Assembly (NCBI RefSeq): GCF_002177135.1
Contig: NZ_MWPH01000001.1
Span: forward strand, 372,001 to 436,000
Direction of reading: 5' to 3'
Length of the DNA: 64,000 nt
Origin: Natronolimnobius baerhuensis
GTDB taxonomy: Archaea > Halobacteriota > Halobacteria > Halobacteriales > Natrialbaceae
A model generated the notes under the pieces. That model saw only the letters and a program-made list of their open reading frames with translations, was not told the origin of the DNA and did no database searches. Below are positions 5,478 to 17,013 of the stretch, piece after piece. The translations under genes and the position numbers were made by a program. Numbering within the stretch: the stretch's first letter is position 1; each line of letters begins with the position of its first letter.

Positions 5478-7520
5478 ATGCTGTCGGCGTTGACACGTCC
5501 CGTCGAGGATCCGATACTCGTTTTCGGACTTGCGATCCTCGTTTTTTTGACGGCACCGCTGGTGATACGGCGGTTTCGACTTCCGGGGATTATCGGCATC
5601 ATCGTCGTCGGCGCAGCCATCGGCCCGAACGGTGTTGGCTTACTCGAGCGCGATGAGACGATTATCTTGCTCGGCGAGGTCGGGATCGTCTATCTGCTCT
5701 TTCTTGCCGGCCTCGAGATCAATCTCTCGCAGTTTATTCGCTACACGGACCGGAGCGTCGTTTTCGGTCTGCTCTCGTTTCTGGTTCCCCAAGCAGTCGG
5801 AATGGTTGTCGGCTACAGCCTGCTGGGACTCTCATTGGGTGCGGCTTCGCTCTTTGCTGCGATTTTCGCCTCGCATACGCTGCTTGCGTATCCGGTCGTC
5901 GCACAACTCGGAATCGCAACCCGCGAGAGCGTCACGGCGACGATTGGCGGGACAATCATTACTGATACGCTCGCGTTGCTCGTACTTGCGGTCGTGATTG
6001 CGGCCGAACAGGGGGAACTTGGGCCGACGTTCTGGCTCGAGTTAGCTGGCGGCCTGGCGCTCTTTTTCGCGGGGATCTGGCTACTGGTGCCACGACTTGG
6101 CCGGTGGTTCTTCCGGACGGTCGAACGCGAGAGCTACGTCGAGTTTCTGTTCGTGATGGCGGTTCTGTTCGGCTGTGCGTATCTTGCGGAACTTGCCCGT
6201 GTCGAGCCCATCATCGGTGCGTTTCTGGCCGGGCTTGCGCTCAATCGCTTGATTCCGGAGCACGGGACGCTGATGAACCGTATCGAGTTCGTTGGCAACG
6301 CGCTCTTTATTCCGTTTTTCCTGCTGTCTGTTGGCATGCTCGTCGATGTTCGCGTGCTCGCAGCGGGCCTCGAGACGATTGTGTTTACCGTCACCCTCAT
6401 CGTTCTCGTCGTGACGACGAAGTACGCTGCAGCGTGGCTGACGGCTCGGCTGTACGGCTACTCACACGCCGAGACGATGACGATGTTCGGCCTTTCGGTC
6501 GGGCAGGCCGCAGCAGCGCTGGCGATTGTCCTCATCGGGTTCGACGTAGGTCTGCTCGGTGAGGCGATGCTCAACGCCGTCGTGCTCATGATCCTCGTCG
6601 TGAGCGTGCTCAGTCCAACCGTCGTCGACCGCTACGGCACCGTCATCGCCCACACGTCCAAACGCACCGCGTACGACCGACGGACTGCCCCACAGCGCGT
6701 CCTGATTCCGTTCTCGAGTGCACTTCCAGACACAGACCGAGACCGGCTCCTCGAGTGTGGAATGTTCATCCGCGATCACGGCGAAGAGCAACCACTGATA
6801 CTCGTCAGCGTTGCGCGGCCGGGGGCTGAGACCTCGAGTGAGTTGGCTGCCATTGCGGCAACGTTCGAAGACGTCGAAGCCATCGCTGCGGGTGCTGAGG
6901 TTCCAATTGAGCGCGAGACGCGTATCGACGAGAGCCGTGCATCGGGAATCGTCCGTGCAACCTACGAGAATCGGGCGACTACGGTCGTCGTCCCCTGGGA
7001 CGGCTCACCACCGACCCGTGGGCGCCAGATCGGGTCTACTATCGATGACGTGCTCGCTCGAACGACCCAGCAGGTAGTGGTGACGACGCTCCGCCAGCCG
7101 CTCAATACGACTCGAGAGATCGTCGTTGTCTTGCCGCCAGGGGTCGGCCAGATTGACGGGTTCTACGAGGCGATTCAGACGGTCGAGCACCTCGCGAGTA
7201 GCGTTGGCGCGTCGATCCGTGCCATCGCCGTTGGCCACGAGACGGAGCGCTACGAGCGGCTGTTCGATCTGGTCGAACCGGACGTGTCGGTGACTGTCGA
7301 GCGCGTCGATGGGTGGCCTGCACTCGATACACAGCTACGGTCGCTCGAGGAGACGACGTTCGTGAGTGCAATCAGCCCGCGTCGTGGAGCGGTGGGTTGG
7401 CATCCCGAGTTGCGCGGTCTGCCAGTTCGACTTACACAGCAGGTCCCTGGCTCCGTCGCTATCGTCTATCCCGCCCGGAGTGACCGCGACGACGACAGAC
7501 AGTTCCTGCAGTTCGGGTAA
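5478..7520 (+). CDS. CPA2-type cation:proton antiporter with C-terminal Usp-like domains
   Basis: 680 residues. Residues 1 to about 390 form the 12-13 membrane helices of the Na+(K+)/H+ exchanger fold (KefB/NapA-like), including [19 protein letters not shown] and the half-helix region with [15 protein letters not shown]. Residues about 400-680 are cytoplasmic and resemble two tandem universal stress protein domains ([12 protein letters not shown] and [12 protein letters not shown] start them), which usually bind nucleotides and gate the transporter. This layout is established in haloarchaea. It likely moves Na+ or K+ against H+ for osmotic and pH homeostasis; the ion is not decidable here. 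Confidence 0.9.
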
Positions 7521-7602
7521 TTCGCGCCAAAACCGCCCGCCGACATGGCGGTTCCGGCGGAGGAACGTTTATTCGGCTGACTCCCGTCGGTTCGAACGAG
7601 AC

Positions 7603-9576
7603 ATGGTTGATCGGAGCGGGTGGGGTCGAGATCGAGCCGTCCCGACGGGGTCACCACACAGCCCGCCAGCGTGGTTTACCGAGCAGGCAAACGTCACTGA
7701 CTCGAGCGTTTACGAGACGTTCGAGACGGACTGGCCGGCGTGTTGGGAGCGTGCCGCGGACTTGCTCTCGTGGGACCAGCCATACGATACCGTCCTCAAC
7801 GACGACGAGCCGCCGTTCTACGAGTGGTTTACCGGCGGGAAACTGAACGCTGCCTACAACTGCGTCGACAGACACCTCGAGTCCGGGCGGAAGAACCACG
7901 TCGCGATTCGCTGGGAGGGCAAACACGGCGAGCGCCAGACGTACACGTATCGGGATCTGTACGTCGAGGTCAACGAGTTCGCTGCGGCACTGCGTGGACT
8001 CGGTGTCGAGGAGGACGATGTCGTCACGATCTACCTGCCGATGATCCCGGAGCTGCCGATTGCGATGTTAGCCTGCGCTCGTATCGGCGCGCCACACAGC
8101 GTCGTCTTCGCCGGACTCTCCGCAGACGCGCTCGCGACGCGCATGGATGCCGCAGACAGCGAGTATCTCGTCACCTGTGACGGCTACTACCGCCGCGGCG
8201 ATGCGTTCAACCAGAAAACGAAGGTCGACAACGCACGCCTCGCACTCGAGGCCGACATCGAAACGGTCGTCGTTGACCGACTCGGTGATGACCTGCCCCA
8301 CGTGCTGGGTGAGAACGAACACGACTATCACGACCTCCGAGACCAGCACGCAGGCGAAACCGTCGATCCGGTCGCTCGAGATGCGGAGGATATGCTCTTT
8401 CTGATGTACACGTCGGGAACGACGGGCGAGCCGAAAGGCGTTGTCCACACGACCGGTGGCTATCTCTCCCACGTTGCCTGGACGAGCCACGCCGTTCTCG
8501 ATATCGAGCCCGAGGACACCTACTGGTGTGCGGCCGACATCGGCTGGATTACCGGCCACTCCTACATCGTCTACGGCCCGCTCGCACTCGGGACGACGAC
8601 GGTGATGTACGAGGGGACGCCGGACTATCCCGACCGGGATCGACTCTGGGAGATCGTCGACCGAAACGCCGTCGACATCTTTTACACCGCACCAACCGCG
8701 ATTCGTGCGTTCATGAAGTGGGGAACAGAATATCCCGAACGCCATGATCTGTCATCACTGCGCCTGCTCGGGACGGTCGGCGAACCGATCAGTCCTCGGC
8801 CGTGGCGCTGGTATCACGAGCACATCGGCGGCGGTGAGTGTCCGGTTGTCGACACCTGGTGGCAGACCGAAACGGGGGCCGTCGTCATCTCGACGCTCCC
8901 CGGTGTCGACGAGATGAAACCCGGTGCAGCGGGGCCGGGCCTGCCAGGAATCGAAGCCACTGTTGTCGATGACACTGGCACTCCCGTCGAACCCGGCGAA
9001 ACAGGCTATCTCGTCCTCGAGCAGCCGTGGCCGGGGATGGCTCGGACGCTGTACGACGGCAATGAGCGCTATCGTGAGGAGTACTGGACGCGGTTTTCGG
9101 ATCCCGATGAAGACGTGTGGCGCTACGCCAGCGGTGACGCCGCGACAGTCGACGACGACGGCTACATCACCGTTCTCGGCCGGATCGACGACGTGATTAA
9201 CGTCTCCGGGCGGCGACTGAGTACGATGGAAATCGAGAGCGCGGTCACTGACGTCACTGGGGTCGCCGAGGCCGCCGTTGTCGGCCGCTCGAGCGAGACT
9301 GGAAACACCGAAATCTACGCCTACGTTAGCACCGAAGGTGGCTACGATCCGGGGACGTCGATCCGTGAGGCGATCATCGACAGCATCGATGCGACGATTG
9401 GCCCCATCGCCAAACCAAGCGAGGTCGTCTTCACGCCGGAACTGCCAAAGACGCGTTCGGGCAAGATCATGCGCCGCCTCCTCGAGGATATCGCAAACGG
9501 GGCGGAGTTAGGCGATACGAGCGCGCTCCGAAACCCCGAAATCGTCGGCGAGATTCAAGCCGAACGCGGCGACTAG
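7603..9576 (+). CDS. acs: Acetate-CoA ligase (AMP-forming acetyl-CoA synthetase), first copy
   Basis: 657 residues, a normal Acs length. Converts acetate, ATP and CoA to acetyl-CoA, AMP and PPi in the cytoplasm. The P-loop-like motif YTSGTTGEPKG, the acyl-adenylate motif DTWWQTETG and the C-terminal PKTRSGKIMRRLL (catalytic and acetylatable Lys) are all present. The start is set at MVDRSGWGRD because the upstream frame back to 7366 overlaps the antiporter, and GTTTATTC at 7568-7575 sits about 30 bases before this ATG. It shares most of its sequence with the acs at 12313-14289, and the two flank a Bat-like regulator. Substrate could be propionate or another short acid. Confidence 0.93.
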   Translation: MVDRSGWGRDRAVPTGSPHSPPAWFTEQANVTDSSVYETFETDWPACWERAADLLSWDQPYDTVLNDDEPPFYEWFTGGKLNAAYNCVDRHLESGRKNHVAIRWEGKHGERQTYTYRDLYVEVNEFAAALRGLGVEEDDVVTIYLPMIPELPIAMLACARIGAPHSVVFAGLSADALATRMDAADSEYLVTCDGYYRRGDAFNQKTKVDNARLALEADIETVVVDRLGDDLPHVLGENEHDYHDLRDQHAGETVDPVARDAEDMLFLMYTSGTTGEPKGVVHTTGGYLSHVAWTSHAVLDIEPEDTYWCAADIGWITGHSYIVYGPLALGTTTVMYEGTPDYPDRDRLWEIVDRNAVDIFYTAPTAIRAFMKWGTEYPERHDLSSLRLLGTVGEPISPRPWRWYHEHIGGGECPVVDTWWQTETGAVVISTLPGVDEMKPGAAGPGLPGIEATVVDDTGTPVEPGETGYLVLEQPWPGMARTLYDGNERYREEYWTRFSDPDEDVWRYASGDAATVDDDGYITVLGRIDDVINVSGRRLSTMEIESAVTDVTGVAEAAVVGRSSETGNTEIYAYVSTEGGYDPGTSIREAIIDSIDATIGPIAKPSEVVFTPELPKTRSGKIMRRLLEDIANGAELGDTSALRNPEIVGEIQAERGD

Positions 9577-9699
9577 TTTCGCTGTTTCAATTCTTCCGAA
9601 ACAGACACTCGAGTGTTGTTTGCTGATATGACTGTACTAACGCAGCTATGGGTGTTTTGGTCGGTACTATTATGTTCGTCTCTATAGAATTCGCGAAAC

Positions 9700-11952
9700 A
9701 TGGCGCTCGAGAAGATGGATGGGCGGGGGGCAGGGCTCTCGAGTCGGCAGTTCGAATCGGTACTCGAGGCTGCAGAAACCTATCGTGAAGCGCTCGTTGT
9801 TCGACTTTGTGGGGCTGTTGGCCTTCGGCCGGCCGAGTTGGCACGGCTCACAATCGGTGATATTGAGCAGGTTCGGATGGATCCGCCGCGGTATCTCGTT
9901 CGCGTTCCCGGCGTGGACGACCGCGAGGACCGGACGGCGTACCTGCCGACACACGTCGAACGGGAACTGCGCCGGTATGCTCGGAGCAACGACCTCGCTG
10001 CTGGCGACCGAATCTTTCCTGTGACGCCGCGGCGACTCCAGATGCTCGTCTCAGAGGTCGGTGACCGGGCGAGTGACCTGTTCGACGAGCCAGCACTGGC
10101 CGATATCTCGAGCAGTGACCTTCGCCAGTACTTCGCCGCTCGAGCGCTCGTCGAGCACGATATCAACCCGCGCGTTGTCAAAGCGGCGGGTGGGTGGCAG
10201 AGCTTCGAAGCCCTCGAGTCGTATCTCGAGACGCCGACTGACACGACAATCGTTGATGCGTTCGCGGCTGTCGAACGTCCGGGGCCGGGCGGCGAACGCG
10301 GCCCCGGCGAGTCGCCAACGGAACACGTCGTCGGCGATAGTGTGATCCGCCTGCTGTTGGCTGCAAGCGAACGATACGCACTCGTTCGTCTCGATGCGGA
10401 GGGCTACGTCGAACGCTGGAATCGCAGCGCTGCGACCCTCTTTGGGTATCGAGCCAGTGAAATCGTCGGCACGCATATTTCGACGTTTTACCCGGACAAC
10501 GCGGTCGAAACAGGCGATCCTGACCGAACCCTCTCGGCTGCACTCGAGGAGTCCGGGACCGAAGTCGAGGGCTGGCGGCTCCACAAGGACGGCACTCGAT
10601 TCCGCGCGACGGAGGTCGTCTCGCCGCTTCGGGATGATAGAGGCCGTCACCGCGGCTTCGTCGTGTTCATTCGTGATCGAACGCCCACACAGGAGGAACT
10701 CGAGGAGGTTCGTCGCGAGCGCGATGCGCTCGCACAACAGGTAACACTCACACACCGTTATCGCGCGCTCACGCGTGGACTTCTCGAGGCGTCCGATCAC
10801 GAGGCGGTGGAACGACAGGCTTGCGAGGCGCTGGCAGACGGCGAGCCGTACACCTGCGCCTGGATTGACCGGGCGACGATTGCACAGCGCCAGGGGAAAC
10901 GGACTGCGAGTGGTATCGCAGCCGATGCGGTCGATGACCTCGTTCCCGAGGCATGGGCCGCGACTGAGTGGACTGACAGCGACTCGGACGCCGAACCACA
11001 GGTCGTCGTGACACACGACGTACACGCGACTATCGGCGGCGACCCGTTCACCGGCACGCTCGCGGCCGTCCCGCTGACGTACGGTGATACCACCTACGGC
11101 ACGCTCGCCGTTGCAACCGACCGTGAGGAGGCGTTCGATGTCGATGAGCGTGCGTGGCTCGAGACCATCGGCCGCCACGTCGGCGCAGCAATCGCGGCTG
11201 TCCGACGGCGTAACCTCTTGCTCTCGGATCGAGTCGTCGAACTCGAGATCGTCTGCAAAGACGCCGGATCGTTCTTCGTCGAGACGTCCCGAGAACTCGA
11301 CTGCCGGTTCGAACTCGATACGCTGGTGCCCGTCGCCGAGTCGACACAGCTGTACTACGTCCGACTCGAGGGGAGTTCACCCGCAGCGGTCTTCGAACGC
11401 GCGGAGGCGACGGAGGGCATTGACGACTGTCGATTAGTCGAAACCGATACGGACGGCTGGCGACTCGAGTTCGTCGTCGAGGGCGCTGCGCCGACGCTGA
11501 CGCTGACGGAGTACGGCGTGACCGTCCTCGAGGCAGTTGTCGAGGACGGAACGGCGACGATCACCGGCGAATGCGCCGCTGATACCGAACTTCGGACGAT
11601 AATCGACGGCCTCAGAGCCGTCTTCCCTGCCAGCGAACTCGTCGGCAAGCGCGAAACCGAACGCACTGTCCAGACCGCTCGAGAGTTCCGGACGGGACTT
11701 GCGGATCGGCTGACTGATCGCCAGGAGGCGACGCTTCAGGCGGCCTACTACGGCGGCTACTACGACTGGCCCCGCGAGAGCACGGCCGAAGAAGTCGCCG
11801 ACGCGATGGGCGTTTCCTCGCCGACGCTGCACAATCACCTTCGAAAGGCCCAACACGAGTTGCTTCGGACCTTCTTCGACCGCCCACCCGGTGATGGTCC
11901 AGACGGCGTCGGCCGAACTGAAACGGAAATCGGCGCGGACGAGCAGGCGTGA
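9700..11952 (+). CDS. Bat-type HTH-10 regulator with integrase-like, PAS and GAF domains
   Basis: 750 residues, a cytoplasmic sensor-regulator. Residues 1-195 resemble a tyrosine-recombinase catalytic fold: GLRPAEL (Arg I) at about 41-47, DLRQYFA (Arg II) near 139 and a final Tyr in ALESYLETP near 176. The usual His residues are replaced (SSDLR instead of HxLR; GGW instead of GH), so recombinase activity is doubtful. Residues 220-335 are a PAS domain, 350-505 a GAF domain, 510-660 the bacterio-opsin activator domain and 670-730 the HTH-10 DNA-binding motif (LTDRQEATLQAAYYGGY). It lies between two acs genes on the same strand, so control of acetate activation is a reasonable guess. Confidence 0.87.
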   Translation: MALEKMDGRGAGLSSRQFESVLEAAETYREALVVRLCGAVGLRPAELARLTIGDIEQVRMDPPRYLVRVPGVDDREDRTAYLPTHVERELRRYARSNDLAAGDRIFPVTPRRLQMLVSEVGDRASDLFDEPALADISSSDLRQYFAARALVEHDINPRVVKAAGGWQSFEALESYLETPTDTTIVDAFAAVERPGPGGERGPGESPTEHVVGDSVIRLLLAASERYALVRLDAEGYVERWNRSAATLFGYRASEIVGTHISTFYPDNAVETGDPDRTLSAALEESGTEVEGWRLHKDGTRFRATEVVSPLRDDRGRHRGFVVFIRDRTPTQEELEEVRRERDALAQQVTLTHRYRALTRGLLEASDHEAVERQACEALADGEPYTCAWIDRATIAQRQGKRTASGIAADAVDDLVPEAWAATEWTDSDSDAEPQVVVTHDVHATIGGDPFTGTLAAVPLTYGDTTYGTLAVATDREEAFDVDERAWLETIGRHVGAAIAAVRRRNLLLSDRVVELEIVCKDAGSFFVETSRELDCRFELDTLVPVAESTQLYYVRLEGSSPAAVFERAEATEGIDDCRLVETDTDGWRLEFVVEGAAPTLTLTEYGVTVLEAVVEDGTATITGECAADTELRTIIDGLRAVFPASELVGKRETERTVQTAREFRTGLADRLTDRQEATLQAAYYGGYYDWPRESTAEEVADAMGVSSPTLHNHLRKAQHELLRTFFDRPPGDGPDGVGRTETEIGADEQA

Positions 11953-11968
11953 TACGGAGTGCCGTACC

Positions 11969-12031
11969 AATGTACCGGCACATCCGCTGCTCGGGTCGCG
12001 GGTACGCCGGAAATGACTGACAGTAACCCGT
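11969..12031. repeat. 62-bp hairpin-bearing repeat, copy B
   Basis: Matches copy A at 456-517 over AATGTACCGG, CGGGTCGCG, TACGCCGG and CAGTAA-CCGT. The stem (11975-11987 with 11998-12010) has three unpaired or wobble positions compared with the perfect stem of copy A. It follows the Bat-like gene directly, again at a gene 3' end. The rest of 12032-12276 shows no gene. Confidence 0.65.
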
Positions 12032-12276
12032 ATGAGTGTCAGTAAGTCAGACAGTCCCGCCTCGAGTCAGCTGGATCGGTCGTAGTCTGATACTAATTCT
12101 CTAGAGGCTCGCGTAATCCGAACTTACGCGCCTGAAACAACCGATCTTTGGGAACCAGTGAAACGGCCGCTCGAGCCCGTGGCCGCCTGATTGGCGTTGA
12201 ACTATCTCGAACAGCCCGTTTGAGGCGCAGTTTCACCGCTTCGTTGCTTGCTCGATTTTGTACACCTAGAGCGCCC

Positions 12277-12286
12277 TTTTAGTATC
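12277..12286 (+). promoter_or_regulatory. Probable TATA box of the second acs gene
   Basis: TTTTAGTATC is centred about 30 bases before the ATG at 12313, the spacing of a leaderless haloarchaeal transcript. This supports that ATG over the in-frame TTG at 12298. Confidence 0.55.
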
Positions 12287-12312
12287 ATGGTTCGTCATTG
12301 ACTGTGTGTACC

Positions 12313-14289
12313 ATGACACAGGAGGAAGTCAGTCTCGAGGCCCGACTCGAGGAGCAGGAGTCGTTCGATCCGCCCGAGTCGTTCGTTGAGCAGGCAAACG
12401 TGTCGGATCCGGAGATTTACGCTGAGTTCGAAGACGAGTGGCCCGAGTGTTGGGAGCGGGCTGCCGACCTGCTGTCGTGGGACAGCGAGTACGATACTGT
12501 CCTCGATGACGATGATGAACCCTTCTATGAGTGGTTCACGGGTGGAGAACTCAACGCCTCCGCGAACTGTCTGGATCGCCACGTCGAGGAGGGGGCAAAG
12601 AATCGCGCGGCGATCAAATGGGAGGGTGAACTGGGCGAGACGCGGACGTACACGTATGGCGAGTTGCTGAACGAGGTCGAAGCCTTCGCGGCAACGCTGC
12701 GTGACCGTGGCGTCGAGGAAGACGACGTGGTCACGCTGTACATGCCGATGATTCCCGAGTTGCCGATTGCGATGCTCGCGTGTGCCCGTCTCGGTGCGCC
12801 ACACAGCGTCGTCTTCGCTGGCTTCTCCGCGGATGCGCTCGCAACGCGGATGAACGCCGCAGAAAGCGAGTACCTCGTCACCTGTGACGGCTACTATCGC
12901 CGCGGTGACGCACTTGATCACATCTCGAAGGCCAACGAGGGCCTCGAGGGCGTCGAACACGAGGTTTCGGACGTCGTGGTCGTCGACCGACTGGGCGATG
13001 CGCTTACGCATTCGCTCGCGGACAACCAGCACGATTACGACGAACTGGTCGCGGAACATGCTGGCGCATCGGTCGAGCCAGTCTCCCGGGATGCCGAGGA
13101 CATGCTGTTCCTGATGTACACCTCTGGCACGACGGGCGAGCCGAAAGGCGTCAAGCACACAACCGGCGGCTACCTGTCGTATGCCGCCTGGACGAGCCAC
13201 TCGGTACTGGACATCAAACCCGAAGACACCTACTGGTGTTCCGCAGACATCGGCTGGATTACCGGCCACTCCTACATCGTCTACGGCCCGCTCGCGCTTG
13301 GCACGACGACGATGATGTACGAGGGGACGCCGGACTACCCGACCAAGGATCGACTCTGGGAGATCATCGAGAAGAACCGCGTCGACGTGTTCTACACCGC
13401 CCCAACCGCAATTCGCGCGTTCATGAAGTGGGGCAAGCAGTACCCCGCCGAACACGACCTCTCGAGTCTGCGACTCCTCGGGACGGTCGGTGAACCGATC
13501 AATCCGCGCGCGTGGAAGTGGTACTACAAACACATCGGCAACGAGGAGTGTCCGATTGTCGACACCTGGTGGCAGACCGAAACTGGCGGCATGATGATTA
13601 CGACGCTCCCCGCGATCAACACGATGAAACCCGGCTCTGCCGGCCCGCCGCTGCCAGGAATCGACGCTCAGGTCGTCGATGCAGCAGGCGAGGAAGTCGA
13701 GGCCGGGAAAGCAGGCTACGTCACCGTTGACAAGCCGTGGCCCGGCATGCTTCGAACGCTGTACAACAACGACGACCGATTCCTCGAGGAGTACTGGCAG
13801 GAGTACTCCGACCCCGATGCAGACGAGTGGGTCTACTTCCCCGAAGACGGCGCGAAAATCGACGACGACGGCTACATCACGATTCTCGGCCGTGTTGACG
13901 ACGTTCTCAATGTCTCCGGGCACCGCCTCGGGACGATGGAAATCGAATCTGCTGTCGTCGGCGTCGAGGGAATCGCCGAAGCAGCTGTCGTTGGCGGCGA
14001 CCACGAGGTCAAAGGCGAAGCCGTCTACGTCTACGCGATTCCCGAAGACGGCTACGAGGGCGGCGACGACCTCGAGGCCAAGGCCGAAGACGCAATCAAC
14101 GACTCGATTGGGCCGATTGCCCGACCCGAAAGCGTGATCTTCACGCCTGAACTGCCGAAAACGCGCTCGGGCAAGATCATGCGCCGCCTCCTCGAGGATA
14201 TCGCGAGTGGCAACGACCTCGGGAGTACGTCGACGCTCCGGAATCCGGAGATCGTCGAGGAGATCGCTGGACAGGTCGAGGCGGACTGA
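12313..14289 (+). CDS. acs: Acetate-CoA ligase (AMP-forming acetyl-CoA synthetase), second copy
   Basis: 658 residues. All Acs motifs are intact: YTSGTTGEPKGV, DTWWQTETGG and PKTRSGKIMRRLL with the regulatory Lys. The N-terminal sequence ESFDPPESFVEQANVSDPEIY is the usual Acs leader domain. Compared with the copy at 7603-9576 it is a close paralogue with different N- and C-terminal tails, suggesting duplication and then different regulation. It is followed after 56 bases by the DUF4212/SSS symporter pair, so uptake and activation of acetate (or a related acid) are physically linked. Confidence 0.93.
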   Translation: MTQEEVSLEARLEEQESFDPPESFVEQANVSDPEIYAEFEDEWPECWERAADLLSWDSEYDTVLDDDDEPFYEWFTGGELNASANCLDRHVEEGAKNRAAIKWEGELGETRTYTYGELLNEVEAFAATLRDRGVEEDDVVTLYMPMIPELPIAMLACARLGAPHSVVFAGFSADALATRMNAAESEYLVTCDGYYRRGDALDHISKANEGLEGVEHEVSDVVVVDRLGDALTHSLADNQHDYDELVAEHAGASVEPVSRDAEDMLFLMYTSGTTGEPKGVKHTTGGYLSYAAWTSHSVLDIKPEDTYWCSADIGWITGHSYIVYGPLALGTTTMMYEGTPDYPTKDRLWEIIEKNRVDVFYTAPTAIRAFMKWGKQYPAEHDLSSLRLLGTVGEPINPRAWKWYYKHIGNEECPIVDTWWQTETGGMMITTLPAINTMKPGSAGPPLPGIDAQVVDAAGEEVEAGKAGYVTVDKPWPGMLRTLYNNDDRFLEEYWQEYSDPDADEWVYFPEDGAKIDDDGYITILGRVDDVLNVSGHRLGTMEIESAVVGVEGIAEAAVVGGDHEVKGEAVYVYAIPEDGYEGGDDLEAKAEDAINDSIGPIARPESVIFTPELPKTRSGKIMRRLLEDIASGNDLGSTSTLRNPEIVEEIAGQVEAD

Positions 14290-14345
14290 CGCTGCGGTTC
14301 ATTTTGGTGTATTGCGCAGAAACTGACCGACGGACCGACAAACCT

Positions 14346-14819
14346 ATGACAGACAATAACGCGCAAGGATCAGGCGGGACGACAGAACAGCCACACGAAC
14401 ACGAGGTGAAGACTGACGGCGGCCTCTCCGACGTTGAGCGCGAACAACAGATCGATTACCTCGATGTCGAAATTAACTTATTGCGGCCAGCGACCCCGTT
14501 CATGCGGGATCATCAGCGTGTCATCCTGACGGGCTTTGCCATCTGGGTGGTCGCAACCTTTGGCCCAATCACGGCGACGCGACTCGCGCCGGACCTGATG
14601 ACCACGCCGATTCCGGTGCTCGAGTTCCCATTCCATTACTTCGCGATTGCGATTGTCGCACCCTCGGCGTCGTTGTTGCTTTCGGTCTGGTATGCACGAA
14701 AGCGCGACCAACTCGACGAAAAGTACGGAATCGAACAGGAGGTTCTCGAGCCGGAACCGGCAGGAACGGTCACGGATTCAGAGGATGCTGCAGCGACTGA
14801 CGGTGGTGTTGAGCAATGA
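14346..14819 (+). CDS. DUF4212 small subunit of a sodium:solute symporter
   Basis: 157 residues. A polar, acidic N-terminus of about 50 residues is followed by the DUF4212 core: YLDVEINLLRPATPFM, then two membrane helices (around residues 62-78 and 98-120) and a YARKRDQLDEKYGI cytoplasmic stretch. In bacteria and archaea this protein is encoded immediately before the SSS transporter, as here: its TGA overlaps the ATG of the next gene by 4 bases. An upstream ATG at 14304 is in frame, but the family begins near MTDNN, so 14346 is used. The C-terminal acidic tail is lineage-specific. Confidence 0.88.
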   Translation: MTDNNAQGSGGTTEQPHEHEVKTDGGLSDVEREQQIDYLDVEINLLRPATPFMRDHQRVILTGFAIWVVATFGPITATRLAPDLMTTPIPVLEFPFHYFAIAIVAPSASLLLSVWYARKRDQLDEKYGIEQEVLEPEPAGTVTDSEDAAATDGGVEQ

Positions 14820-16552
14820 TGGACGGCTCTCTGCTGGCCGCGACAGAACTCGCACTCGGTGCGGCCGAGACGCTCCCGCTGCAAGTTGATGAGGGGCTGC
14901 TTCCGGAAGGATTGGACGTTTCGTTCAAGCCACTGCCAGCGATTATCGTCGTCGGCATGATGCTATTGTTCCTCGTTGTTGGCTTCATGTTCAAAGTGGC
15001 CGACACCGATGATATGTGGGTTGCTGGCCGGTCTATCGGAAACATCGAAAACGGAATGGCGATTGGCGCAAACTGGATGTCAGCTGCGTCGTATCTCGGC
15101 ATGGCGGCCCTGATTGCGCTTTCGGGCGTATACGGGCTTGCCTTTGTCGTTGGATGGACGACCGGGTACTTCATCCTCCTCATTTTCATGGCCGCTCAGA
15201 TGCGCCGGTTCGGAAAGTACACCGCGCCGGACTTCGTCGGAGATCGCTTCAACTCCGACGCTGCACGTGCGCTCGCGGCGGTCACGACGTTCCTCATCGG
15301 ATTCGTCTACGCGCTCGGCCAGGCTCGCGGAATGGGACTGGTCGGCATGTACGTGCTGGGCGACATCAACGAAATCGTCGCGATTCCTGGTATTAGCGCC
15401 TACCAGGGCATGATGATCCTGTTCATGGTCATCACAATTGGCTACCTGGCGCTGTCGGGGATGCTCGGTGCGACCAAGAACATGGCGCTGCAGTACACCA
15501 TTCTTATTGCTGCCTTCCTTCTCGGGTTGCTCGCGACCGGTTGGGCTGGTGGCTTCTCGACAGTACTGCCACAACTCGAGTACGGACAACTGATCAGCGA
15601 ACTCGGCAACGAGTTCTCTCAGCCGTTCGCAAACGAGAGCTACTACCTGTGGATCGCGACCTGTTTCAGCCTGATCTTCGGGACCTGTGGCCTCCCGCAC
15701 GTGCTAGTCAGGTTCTACACGGTCCAGAACGAGCGTGTCGCTCGCTGGTCGTGTACCTGGGGTCTGTTCTTCATCTGCCTGCTGTACCTGAGTGCACCGG
15801 CATTCGCCGCCTTCGGCACTGCACTCTACAGCGACCAGATCGGCGCAGCCTACGGCGACCCCGGTATGACCGAGGCTGCAGGTGACGTGATCGTCGTGCT
15901 TGCTTCACAACTTGCTGGCTTGCCGACCTGGTTCGTCGGCTTCGTCGCCGCGGGCGGTATTGCAGCCGCCGTCGCGACGACGGCTGGACTGTTCATCGCC
16001 GCCTCCTCGGCGATCTCTCACGACATCTACGCGAACATCATCAACGAAGACGCAACCCAGCGCCAGCAGGTGCTGGTCGGTCGCCTGAGCATCGTTGCAA
16101 TCGGTGTGCTGACGATCATCTTTGCGATGGACCCAACGGCACCGATTGCCGCGCTGGTCTCGTTTGCGTTCTCGCTCGCCGCAATCGTGTTGTTCCCCAT
16201 GTTCTTCCTCGGACTCTGGTGGGAACGGACCAACCGTCAGGGCGCACTTGCCGGGATGACCAGTGGACTGCTCATCTGGCTGATTCCGATGTTTAACGAG
16301 GGTCACTTCGGTTCTGGCTGGGACATCGGGTTCATTTCAACCTGGGTACCAGCGATTGGATCTGGACTGGTCGGCGTGCCGTTGGTGTTTGCAATCACGA
16401 TTATCGTCTCGCTCGTGACCGATGATCCGCCGCTCCAAACGAAACAGATGGTCCGACAGTGTCATAGCCCGGACCCGATGTCGCGAGACAAGACCGCGGC
16501 GGACGTCGTCGCCGAAAAGAACGGACGCGGAGACGCACCTGCGGATGACTGA
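14816..16552 (+). CDS. Sodium:solute symporter (SSS family), probable acetate/monocarboxylate permease
   Basis: 578 residues with about 13 predicted membrane helices. The conserved SSS core includes DMWVAGRSIGNIENGMAIG and NWMSAASYLGMAA near the start (Na+-site helix) and FGTCGLPHVLVRFYTV in the middle, both typical of the ActP-like (cation acetate symporter) subgroup. The C-terminus is a hydrophilic tail. Located after acs and its DUF4212 partner and before an Usp gene with only 2 bases between, it very likely imports acetate or another short carboxylate with Na+; substrate identity is inferred from context. Confidence 0.9.
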   Translation: MMDGSLLAATELALGAAETLPLQVDEGLLPEGLDVSFKPLPAIIVVGMMLLFLVVGFMFKVADTDDMWVAGRSIGNIENGMAIGANWMSAASYLGMAALIALSGVYGLAFVVGWTTGYFILLIFMAAQMRRFGKYTAPDFVGDRFNSDAARALAAVTTFLIGFVYALGQARGMGLVGMYVLGDINEIVAIPGISAYQGMMILFMVITIGYLALSGMLGATKNMALQYTILIAAFLLGLLATGWAGGFSTVLPQLEYGQLISELGNEFSQPFANESYYLWIATCFSLIFGTCGLPHVLVRFYTVQNERVARWSCTWGLFFICLLYLSAPAFAAFGTALYSDQIGAAYGDPGMTEAAGDVIVVLASQLAGLPTWFVGFVAAGGIAAAVATTAGLFIAASSAISHDIYANIINEDATQRQQVLVGRLSIVAIGVLTIIFAMDPTAPIAALVSFAFSLAAIVLFPMFFLGLWWERTNRQGALAGMTSGLLIWLIPMFNEGHFGSGWDIGFISTWVPAIGSGLVGVPLVFAITIIVSLVTDDPPLQTKQMVRQCHSPDPMSRDKTAADVVAEKNGRGDAPADD

Positions 16553-16554
16553 CC

Positions 16555-17013
16555 ATGTACGAACGCATACTCGTTCCAACAGACGGTAGCAAGGTAGCAC
16601 AGGTCGCGGTTGACAACGCGGTCGATCTCGCCGAGAAATACGGTGCAGAGGTACACGCGCTGTACGTCGCCGATACCGACGCGGTTGCCTACGGATTGGG
16701 CACCGAACAGGTCGACCGTATTCGCCAGGGGAACTTCGAGGGGATGACCGAACTTCGAGAAGATGCAGAGGCCGCAACCGGATACGTACGGGACCAAGCA
16801 GATGCAGCCGACATTCCCGCCGTCGAACACCACGCTGGCGGCCAACCCCATCGCATGATTGCGAACTACGCCGAGGACAACGGTATCGATCTGATCGTGA
16901 TCGGCAGTCACGGTCGATCCGGGGTTCGCCGTGCGCTGCTCGGAAGCGTCACCGAGCGTGTGTTGCGCTCGACGACCACCCCGGTCCTGGTCGTCGACTA
17001 CGAAGACGACTAA
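16555..17013 (+). CDS. UspA-family universal stress protein
   Basis: 152 residues, complete Usp fold: MYERILVPTDGSKVAQVAV with the conserved Asp, and an intact nucleotide motif GSHGRSGVRRALLGSVTERV (G-2x-G-9x-G-S), so it should bind ATP. The final strand is TPVLVVDYE. It starts 2 bases after the symporter stop, so it is almost certainly co-transcribed with it. Usp proteins beside SSS/DUF4212 genes are common in haloarchaea and may sense energy state to adjust transport (inference). Confidence 0.92.
   Translation: MYERILVPTDGSKVAQVAVDNAVDLAEKYGAEVHALYVADTDAVAYGLGTEQVDRIRQGNFEGMTELREDAEAATGYVRDQADAADIPAVEHHAGGQPHRMIANYAEDNGIDLIVIGSHGRSGVRRALLGSVTERVLRSTTTPVLVVDYEDD

Follow-up and report, generated by a model that had tools for sequence, protein, structure and literature searches.

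The acs-linked fused regulator

The window analyzed here is a stretch of 64,000 nucleotides from Natronolimnobius baerhuensis (contig NZ_MWPH01000001.1, positions 372,001 to 436,000), and between two acetyl-CoA synthetase genes, acs1 and acs2, its forward strand carries an open reading frame (9700 to 11952) for a protein of 750 amino acids (aa), a Bat-type regulator that begins with a tyrosine-recombinase-like domain. A first-pass annotation, made from the sequence alone, had proposed this fusion, and the Pfam scan bears it out: Phage_integrase (PF00589) matches residues 14 to 176 with 37.3 bits against a cut-off of 27.1 (E 3.1e-9), and farther downstream in the same protein PAS, GAF and HTH_10 (69 bits) are all matched, with BAT (156 bits) besides. 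The gene and its domains lie as follows.

9700..11952, + strand: fused regulator, recombinase-like domain + PAS + GAF + BAT + HTH_10, 750 aa
9736..10275, + strand: tyrosine-recombinase catalytic-domain fold, residues 13-192, without core-binding domain (PF00589; AlphaFold; VIA)
10378..10701, + strand: PAS domain, residues 227-334 (TIGR00229, 49.2 bits; PF13426, 46.6 bits)
10798..11196, + strand: GAF domain, residues 367-499 (PF13185, 38 bits)
11227..11691, + strand: BAT domain, residues 510-664 (PF15915, 156 bits)
11710..11865, + strand: HTH_10 DNA-binding domain, residues 671-722 (PF04967, 69 bits)

BAT, the C-terminal HTH_10 and the PAS and GAF sensory domains mark the protein as Bat-type, and the REC domain that usually stands at the N-terminus of this architecture is replaced here by the recombinase fold. 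Among nine fused homologues that were scanned, BAT and HTH_10 are found in all, GAF in seven and PAS in two, so that PAS is not universal in the fused family; Phage_integrase scores above the Pfam cut-off in four of them and below it in five. The AlphaFold model of the whole protein (predicted local distance difference test, pLDDT, 85.6; predicted template modeling score, pTM, 0.55) is confident for the domains individually and leaves their mutual arrangement open.

The recombinase fold

An AlphaFold model of residues 1-195, built from 81 natural sequences, reached a mean pLDDT of 92.6 and a pTM of 0.87. Foldseek matched this domain model best to XerA, Cre and XerH, with E values of 8.6e-7 and weaker, and VIA-align gave Z 18.5 against XerA 5hxy (root-mean-square deviation 3.6 over 167 aligned residues) and Z 17.8 against 4a8e (2.5 over 145), the latter an archaeal XerC-like protein that is also the best sequence relative with a solved structure (E 3.7e-5). 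The same VIA list holds the phage repressors MrpR/YopR (8a0a, Z 12.4; 8bpz, Z 12.9) and the DNA-bound SroF of phi3T (9rd5, Z 14.4). Judged from the model, residues 13-192 carry a real tyrosine-recombinase catalytic-domain fold, far beyond chance; the structure prediction and Xer comparison that had been suggested as a check on the proposed N-terminal domain thus returned a recombinase fold and not its absence. The NCBIfam model of archaeal XerA covers residues 13-181 with 41.9 bits, far under its own 220-bit cut-off. There is no N-terminal core-binding domain, since the recombinase-like domain begins at residue 13 and the stop-to-stop frame of the regulator opens at 9688, only 12 bases 5' of the ATG.

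Decay of the active site

For a comparison of the catalytic positions, 81 fused domains were aligned, namely that of the window protein and the best 80 of 87 loci found, and 180 columns (residues 13-192) were ranked by conservation. A thinned set retained 34 fused sequences at under 75% identity, and 18 stand-alone relatives served as the control, taken from the 20 best-scoring after L079 (deviant start) and L084 (near copy) had been left out. The positions at issue are these.

9826..9837, + strand: R43 (Arg I) and E46 of GLRPAEL (76/81 and 81/81 fused homologues)
9925..9927, + strand: Glu76 at the position of the catalytic Lys (variability rank 180 of 180 columns)
10027..10083, + strand: helix 110-128, with R111, R112, Q114 and M115 invariant, probable DNA-recognition helix (alignment; model)
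10114..10125, + strand: Ser139, formerly the His of HxxR, and R142 (Arg II)
10195..10197, + strand: Trp166, the His/Trp position (W in 78/81)
10222..10224, + strand: Tyr175, the nucleophile position (Tyr in 63/81)

Part of the active site is kept nearly without exception. R142 is present in all 81 fused domains and all 34 of the thinned set, R43 in 76 of the 81 with its acidic partner E46 in every one, and W166 in 78 (31 of 34 after thinning). The catalytic Lys of the beta-hairpin, which is Glu76 in the window protein, falls in the most variable column of all, and no Lys stands anywhere in residues 68-82 of any of the 81 domains. At the HxxR position, Ser139 in the window protein, His is found in only one of the 81. 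Tyr175 occupies an intermediate place: it is present in 63 fused domains (24 of the thinned 34) and is replaced in the other 18 by Leu (7), Phe (5), Glu (2) and also Arg, Asp, His or Gly, with no Tyr within residues 170-182 of these 18 domains. Eleven of the 28 rows from outside the Natrialbaceae keep the Tyr. The 18 homologues without it have acs upstream in 17 cases and on both sides in 14. In the 18 stand-alone relatives the Arg, Lys, Arg, Trp and Tyr are all invariant, and only one of the 18 lacks the His.

Of the marks of an active recombinase, the domain therefore has the fold, Arg I with its acidic partner, and Arg II with the His/Trp residue; it lacks the hairpin Lys, the HxxR His and a Tyr nucleophile kept family-wide, although the window protein has this Tyr itself. 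Replacement of the Lys or the Tyr inactivates Cre, XerH and lambda Int (PMC10516654). An active enzyme is unlikely on this residue pattern, because the Lys is absent from 81 of 81 domains, the His from 80 and the Tyr from 18, and the stand-alone relatives keep all three. The suggestion of a site-specific DNA enzyme under sensory control, which the first-pass annotation had made, is thereby disfavored, and an active recombinase under such control was set aside as a candidate on the same Lys, His and Tyr pattern.

The residues on which that suggestion had been built were for the most part read correctly. The Arg of GLRPAEL (R43), the Arg of DLRQYFA (R142) and the Tyr of ALESYLETP are all present, except that the Tyr is residue 175 and not 176. 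The statement that both usual His positions are changed is half right: the HxxR His is lost, but Trp166 at the second position is a normal active-site residue, Trp being accepted there, as in Cre W315 (PMC10516654). The loss of the catalytic Lys was overlooked. Loss of the Tyr and Arg residues in close homologues, named in advance as an outcome that would tell against the idea, has occurred for the Tyr in 18 of 81 domains, while R142 and, in all but five of the 81, R43 stay.

A conserved helix and probable DNA binding

R111, R112, Q114 and M115, which lie on model helix 110-128, are each identical in all 81 fused domains and in all 34 of the thinned set, and the equivalent positions vary among the stand-alone enzymes. 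By analogy with Cre and XerD, this helix is the probable recognition helix that would enter the major groove. The Arg-Glu-Arg-Trp pocket and the locked helix together speak, probably, for DNA binding without cutting, and to that extent the idea of a recombinase fold taken up by a Bat-type regulator, probably for DNA binding or dimerization, is supported.

A different use of the old active site may be imagined, in which it has become a signal pocket. The Lys, the His and, in many lineages, the Tyr are gone, and the Arg-Glu-Arg-Trp cluster that once would have held the scissile phosphate might now bind a phosphorylated signal of acetate activation, such as AMP or acetyl-adenylate. This reading is speculative and we regard it as highly unlikely; were it true, the ligands would be products of the neighboring acs enzymes, and acetate status would be linked to how the recombinase-derived head and HTH_10 bind DNA.

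The acetate gene cluster

The genes around the regulator belong to acetate uptake and activation, and all lie in the same direction.

7366..9576, + strand: acs1, acetyl-CoA synthetase, true start probably downstream of 7366
12313..14289, + strand: acs2, acetyl-CoA synthetase
14304..14819, + strand: DUF4212 protein (PF13937)
14816..16552, + strand: sodium:solute symporter, acetate-transporter type by neighborhood (PF00474, 174 bits)
16555..17013, + strand: universal stress protein, last gene of the cluster (PF00582)

When the neighborhood was scored by script in 80 loci, whose relatedness means that the counts are not independent events, acs was found upstream of the regulator in 77 (78 if L169, at a contig end, is counted); downstream of it, 74 loci have acs and 69 the sodium:solute symporter. 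In L166 and L167 acs2 is missing and the DUF4212-symporter pair lies directly 3' of the regulator; apart from three loci taken up below, the remaining gaps are contig ends. Plasmids of Haladaptatus salinisoli and Haloferax alexandrinus carry the genes in the order acs-regulator-acs-DUF4212-symporter too, with UspA in the case of Haloferax. Transcription of the H. volcanii operon acs7-HVO_A0155-ssf-uspA28 was detected on acetate but not on glucose or casamino acids, and HVO_A0156 and HVO_A0158 are acs genes (PMC7746861). From the locus numbering and gene order we infer that HVO_A0157, between acs8 and acs7, is probably the H. volcanii orthologue of the regulator; it is named in no paper found among the open-licence literature, and the word "regulator" does not appear in the main text of PMC7746861, where the acetate-induced operon is described.

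Presence of the fusion goes together with the rest of the cluster. Twelve genomes of the family are without it. One, G036, is only 55% complete and has a match to the symporter; the remaining 11 are each over 90% complete. An acs2-like gene (78-83%) is found in every one of these 11, and none has a symporter at E 1e-80 or the 66-73% match typical of acs1. In 12 fusion-bearing genomes chosen for spread, both the symporter and acs1 are present in 12 of 12.

Directly upstream of acs1 in the window lies a cation/proton antiporter gene (5478-7520) with a C-terminal universal-stress-like match, and nine further Natrialbaceae loci have a relative of it in the corresponding place. L196 is a more distant acs gene, at 40% identity, with one in-frame TGA.

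A promoter element upstream of acs2

In the intergenic stretch between the regulator and acs2, comparison of acs2 promoters revealed a conserved element.

12256..12281, + strand: conserved acs2 promoter element TTTTGYACANCTAGA-N7-TTTA, proposed operator of the regulator

The search covered 110 bases upstream of acs2 in 75 loci, with shuffled sequences as the control. YTAG-N8-YTTA was found in 70 of the 75, comprising all 52 Natrialbaceae loci and 18 of the 23 others, against 0.1 per group in the shuffles, and a longer form, TTTGYACANCTAGA, in 46 of the 52 and in one of the 23. The element adjoins a TATA-like box and, in 56 of 70 cases, lies 47 nucleotides before the projected start. Sequences of Haloferax and Haladaptatus carry it as well, as read by eye, and an element of the same form precedes the DUF4212-symporter genes in both L166 and L167, the two loci lacking acs2. 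The long pattern matches the window's genome once with up to 3 mismatches allowed, at 12256-12281; the shorter form with 3 mismatches gives 3 matches in the window against 2.2 expected, so that for this form only the exact match is informative.

Other promoters were inspected for the same pattern. YTAG-N8-YTTA occurs in none of 78 upstream regions of the regulator and in two of 77 of acs1, where the top words are all GC-rich and coding-like. It is absent from six unclustered acs paralogues and from the acs genes of 11 cluster-less genomes, and 15 of these 17 promoters have a box AA[CT]G[TC]TTA in its place. A second, unclustered acs2-like gene is found in six of 12 cluster-bearing genomes. In one genome, L213 and L219 encode near-identical acs proteins, one clustered and the other not, behind different promoters, which suggests gene conversion or a recent copy. 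As regards a possible likeness of the element to the Bat site upstream of bop, nine rhodopsin genes, taken from one Haloarcula and three Halobacterium genomes, do not show the pattern in their upstream stretches, which may miss the true promoters and of which one is only 8 bases long.

Several further words were noted in these intergenic regions. Upstream of the regulator, 38 of the 52 Natrialbaceae loci have CGAANATAA or its complement (at most 8 in shuffled sequences); in the window this word lies at about 9640-9699, and it is probably the regulator's own TATA region. A second CTAGA lies at 12101-12105, within tctctagaggctcgcg, 165 bp upstream of the CTAGA in the acs2 element. In L141, L143, L150 and L164 a 12-bp near-palindrome, CTAACTG-N-YTAG, which resembles paired TAG half-sites, stands shortly after the regulator stop and well upstream of acs2.

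A probable sensor-regulator of acetate uptake and activation

Considered together, these data make it probable that the recombinase domain has been domesticated and now binds DNA without cutting it, as part of an activator of the acetate cluster. The gene would thus encode the sensor-regulator of the haloarchaeal cluster for acetate uptake and activation. Its N-terminal domain, no longer cutting DNA, would occupy the REC place of usual Bat-type proteins and act as a second DNA-binding, perhaps oligomerizing, head beside the C-terminal HTH_10. The PAS and GAF domains would sense a signal, and the regulator would then activate, through the YTAG-N8-YTTA element beside the TATA box, the promoter directly 3' of its own gene, which serves acs2-DUF4212-symporter-UspA. 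The fold, the catalytic decay, the single fused clade (described below), the synteny in most loci and the conserved, cluster-specific promoter element are established; DNA binding by the domain, binding to the element, activation and the signal are inferred. Activation is preferred to repression because the element lies just upstream of the TATA-like box and because the H. volcanii operon is induced on acetate. Synteny and conservation of the element point to a regulon, if short of proof, and either the recombinase-like head or HTH_10 could be the reader.

Several observations weigh against this account. Tyr175 is retained in 52 of 53 Natrialbaceae rows, so that some constraint on it must remain there. 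The domain is acidic, as are the stand-alone enzymes (net charge -5.4 and -5.0 per 100 aa), so that its charge offers no guidance. The loci are not phylogenetically independent, and conservation of an element between neighboring genes of related genomes can reflect promoter ancestry; nor does conservation identify the binding protein, and HTH_10 alone could read the element. The strict element is missing from five of the 75 acs2 promoters; among these, L155 offers only 43 bp to search, and near variants are seen, TAG-N8-ATTA for example. In L147 the 3.6 kb upstream of the regulator contain no acs gene, and in L154 and L157 the symporter is missing although over 5 kb of downstream DNA is present. 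Finally, in genomes without the cluster the acs genes lie outside the main acs2 clade, as most unclustered paralogues do, so that the missing element there compares paralogues and does not record a loss at acs2. The use of these genomes as a natural experiment for such a loss is undercut by this paralogy, and they serve as paralogue controls only.

The recombinase-like domain might instead be nothing but a structural or dimerization module, with HTH_10 alone reading the acs2 element. Bat itself is described as having GAF, PAS and a C-terminal HTH (PMC1447603), with an N-terminal domain that is a divergent REC (PMC5847659), not a DNA-binding fold, and both the free drift of the catalytic positions and the acidity of the domain would suit such a role. 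Yet R111, R112, Q114 and M115 of the putative recognition helix are kept in 81 of 81 domains, and the two Args of the phosphate pocket are retained as well, more than a mere dimerization domain would need, and the MrpR fold binds DNA despite lost catalysis (PMC10516654); we consider this explanation rather unlikely. Much less probable still, to the point of near dismissal, is that, at least in Natrialbaceae, the domain still breaks DNA under sensory control, whether as a recombinase or by nicking or relaxing. In this family R43, E46, R142, W166 and Tyr175 mostly all remain, the Tyr in 52 of 53 rows, which speaks for such an enzyme, and the window protein has five of the seven active-site positions tabulated in PMC10516654. 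Against this stand the lost Lys and His, kept by the closest stand-alone relatives, the inactivation of known recombinases by Lys or Tyr replacement, and orthologues from the same cluster in which the Tyr is missing. The order and orientation of acs and regulator, moreover, are constant wherever both occur, so that no inversion switch is seen, and inverted repeats of 12 or more are absent from the two intergenic stretches of the window; 15 imperfect inverted-repeat pairs do occur over 9400-12500, nearly all inside genes. An inversion switch at the acs promoter was rejected on these grounds.

A further alternative concerns the element only and is compatible with a recombinase-derived domain: the element could be a basal or general promoter feature, such as a variant TFB/TBP site, unrelated to a regulator that acts elsewhere. 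Its contact with the TATA-like box at a fixed distance would fit this well. Against it, the element is missing from all 78 regulator upstream regions, 75 of the 77 acs1 upstream regions and the 17 paralogue promoters (a different box stands in 15 of them), and its long form matches the window's genome once; it also precedes the transporter genes in both loci where acs2 is missing. On balance this explanation, too, is improbable, and activation of the acs2 promoter by the regulator through the element is the reading that we retain.

Origin, spread and stand-alone relatives

In a tree of 49 fused domains, a chosen subset, and 18 stand-alone domains, the fused rows form one clade with support 98/97, which is consistent with a single fusion event. 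With stand-alone genes included, the domain is matched in 115 of the family's 125 genomes at E 1e-10 or better (in two of these, G003 and G021, by short stand-alone frames only) and in 326 of the order's 391 sampled genomes at E 1e-12. A "phages" search with the domain gave no match at E 0.001.

The closest non-fused sequence relatives found are stand-alone haloarchaeal integrases, mostly of about 200 aa, at 27-40% identity. Like the fused domain, they consist of the catalytic domain only, without a core-binding part; unlike it, they have a complete active site and are encoded by separate genes, some of them plasmid-borne. Nearly all of L071-L090 and L173 have the full set of catalytic residues. 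One such integrase, WP_012289605, is encoded on H. salinarum plasmid PHS4 and is followed by a small gene overlapping its end.

Comparison with known systems

The architecture itself is already in print. In a survey of archaeal tyrosine recombinases (Badel et al. 2021; PMC8371274), fam30-04 combines Phage_integrase, BAT and HTH_10, in some members with GAF_2, and the window protein corresponds to it by domain architecture. The family is listed there among the tyrosine recombinases, and in the two places where the main text names it, active-site decay, synteny with acs and function go unmentioned. Among the open-licence literature joining these domains or the name Bat with acs or acetate, no paper on the function of the regulator was found; passages of PMC3403918 and PMC5847659, two papers that contain both kinds of words, do not mention the fusion. 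By the residue pattern, a family so far counted among recombinases is very probably not one, and its gene neighborhood assigns it a job, the regulation of acetate uptake and activation in haloarchaea.

Bat of Halobacterium shares with the window protein PAS/GAF sensing and a C-terminal HTH (PMC1447603, PMC3184054, PMC5847659). The usual order is REC-PAS-GAF-BAT-HTH_10, and the N-terminal domain of Bat is a divergent REC; some Bat-like proteins have other domains in its place (PMC5847659), and in the window protein the recombinase fold stands there. The target of Bat is bop, not acs.

XerA, an active enzyme with a core-binding domain and the full catalytic set, provides the best solved structures for the fold of the domain (5hxy, 4a8e). 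Its activity and structure are listed in PMC8371274.

Another parallel is MrpR/YopR, the SPbeta master repressor, in which a recombinase fold serves as a non-cutting transcription regulator, as is proposed here (PMC10516654). A recombinase fold with loss of catalytic residues is common to both, but the residues lost differ. MrpR has a core-binding domain and keeps the Glu, the Lys and the Tyr, the last apparently crucial for DNA binding, while its Args, His and His/Trp are lost (PMC10516654); the window protein has lost the Lys and the His, keeps the Args, carries attached sensor domains and is without a core-binding domain. MrpR and SroF of phi3T are phage proteins, linked to the window domain by shared fold only. 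The haloarchaeal regulator would add an apparently separate example of a recombinase fold withdrawn from catalysis and put to use in transcription control, in this case fused to sensor domains and widely retained.

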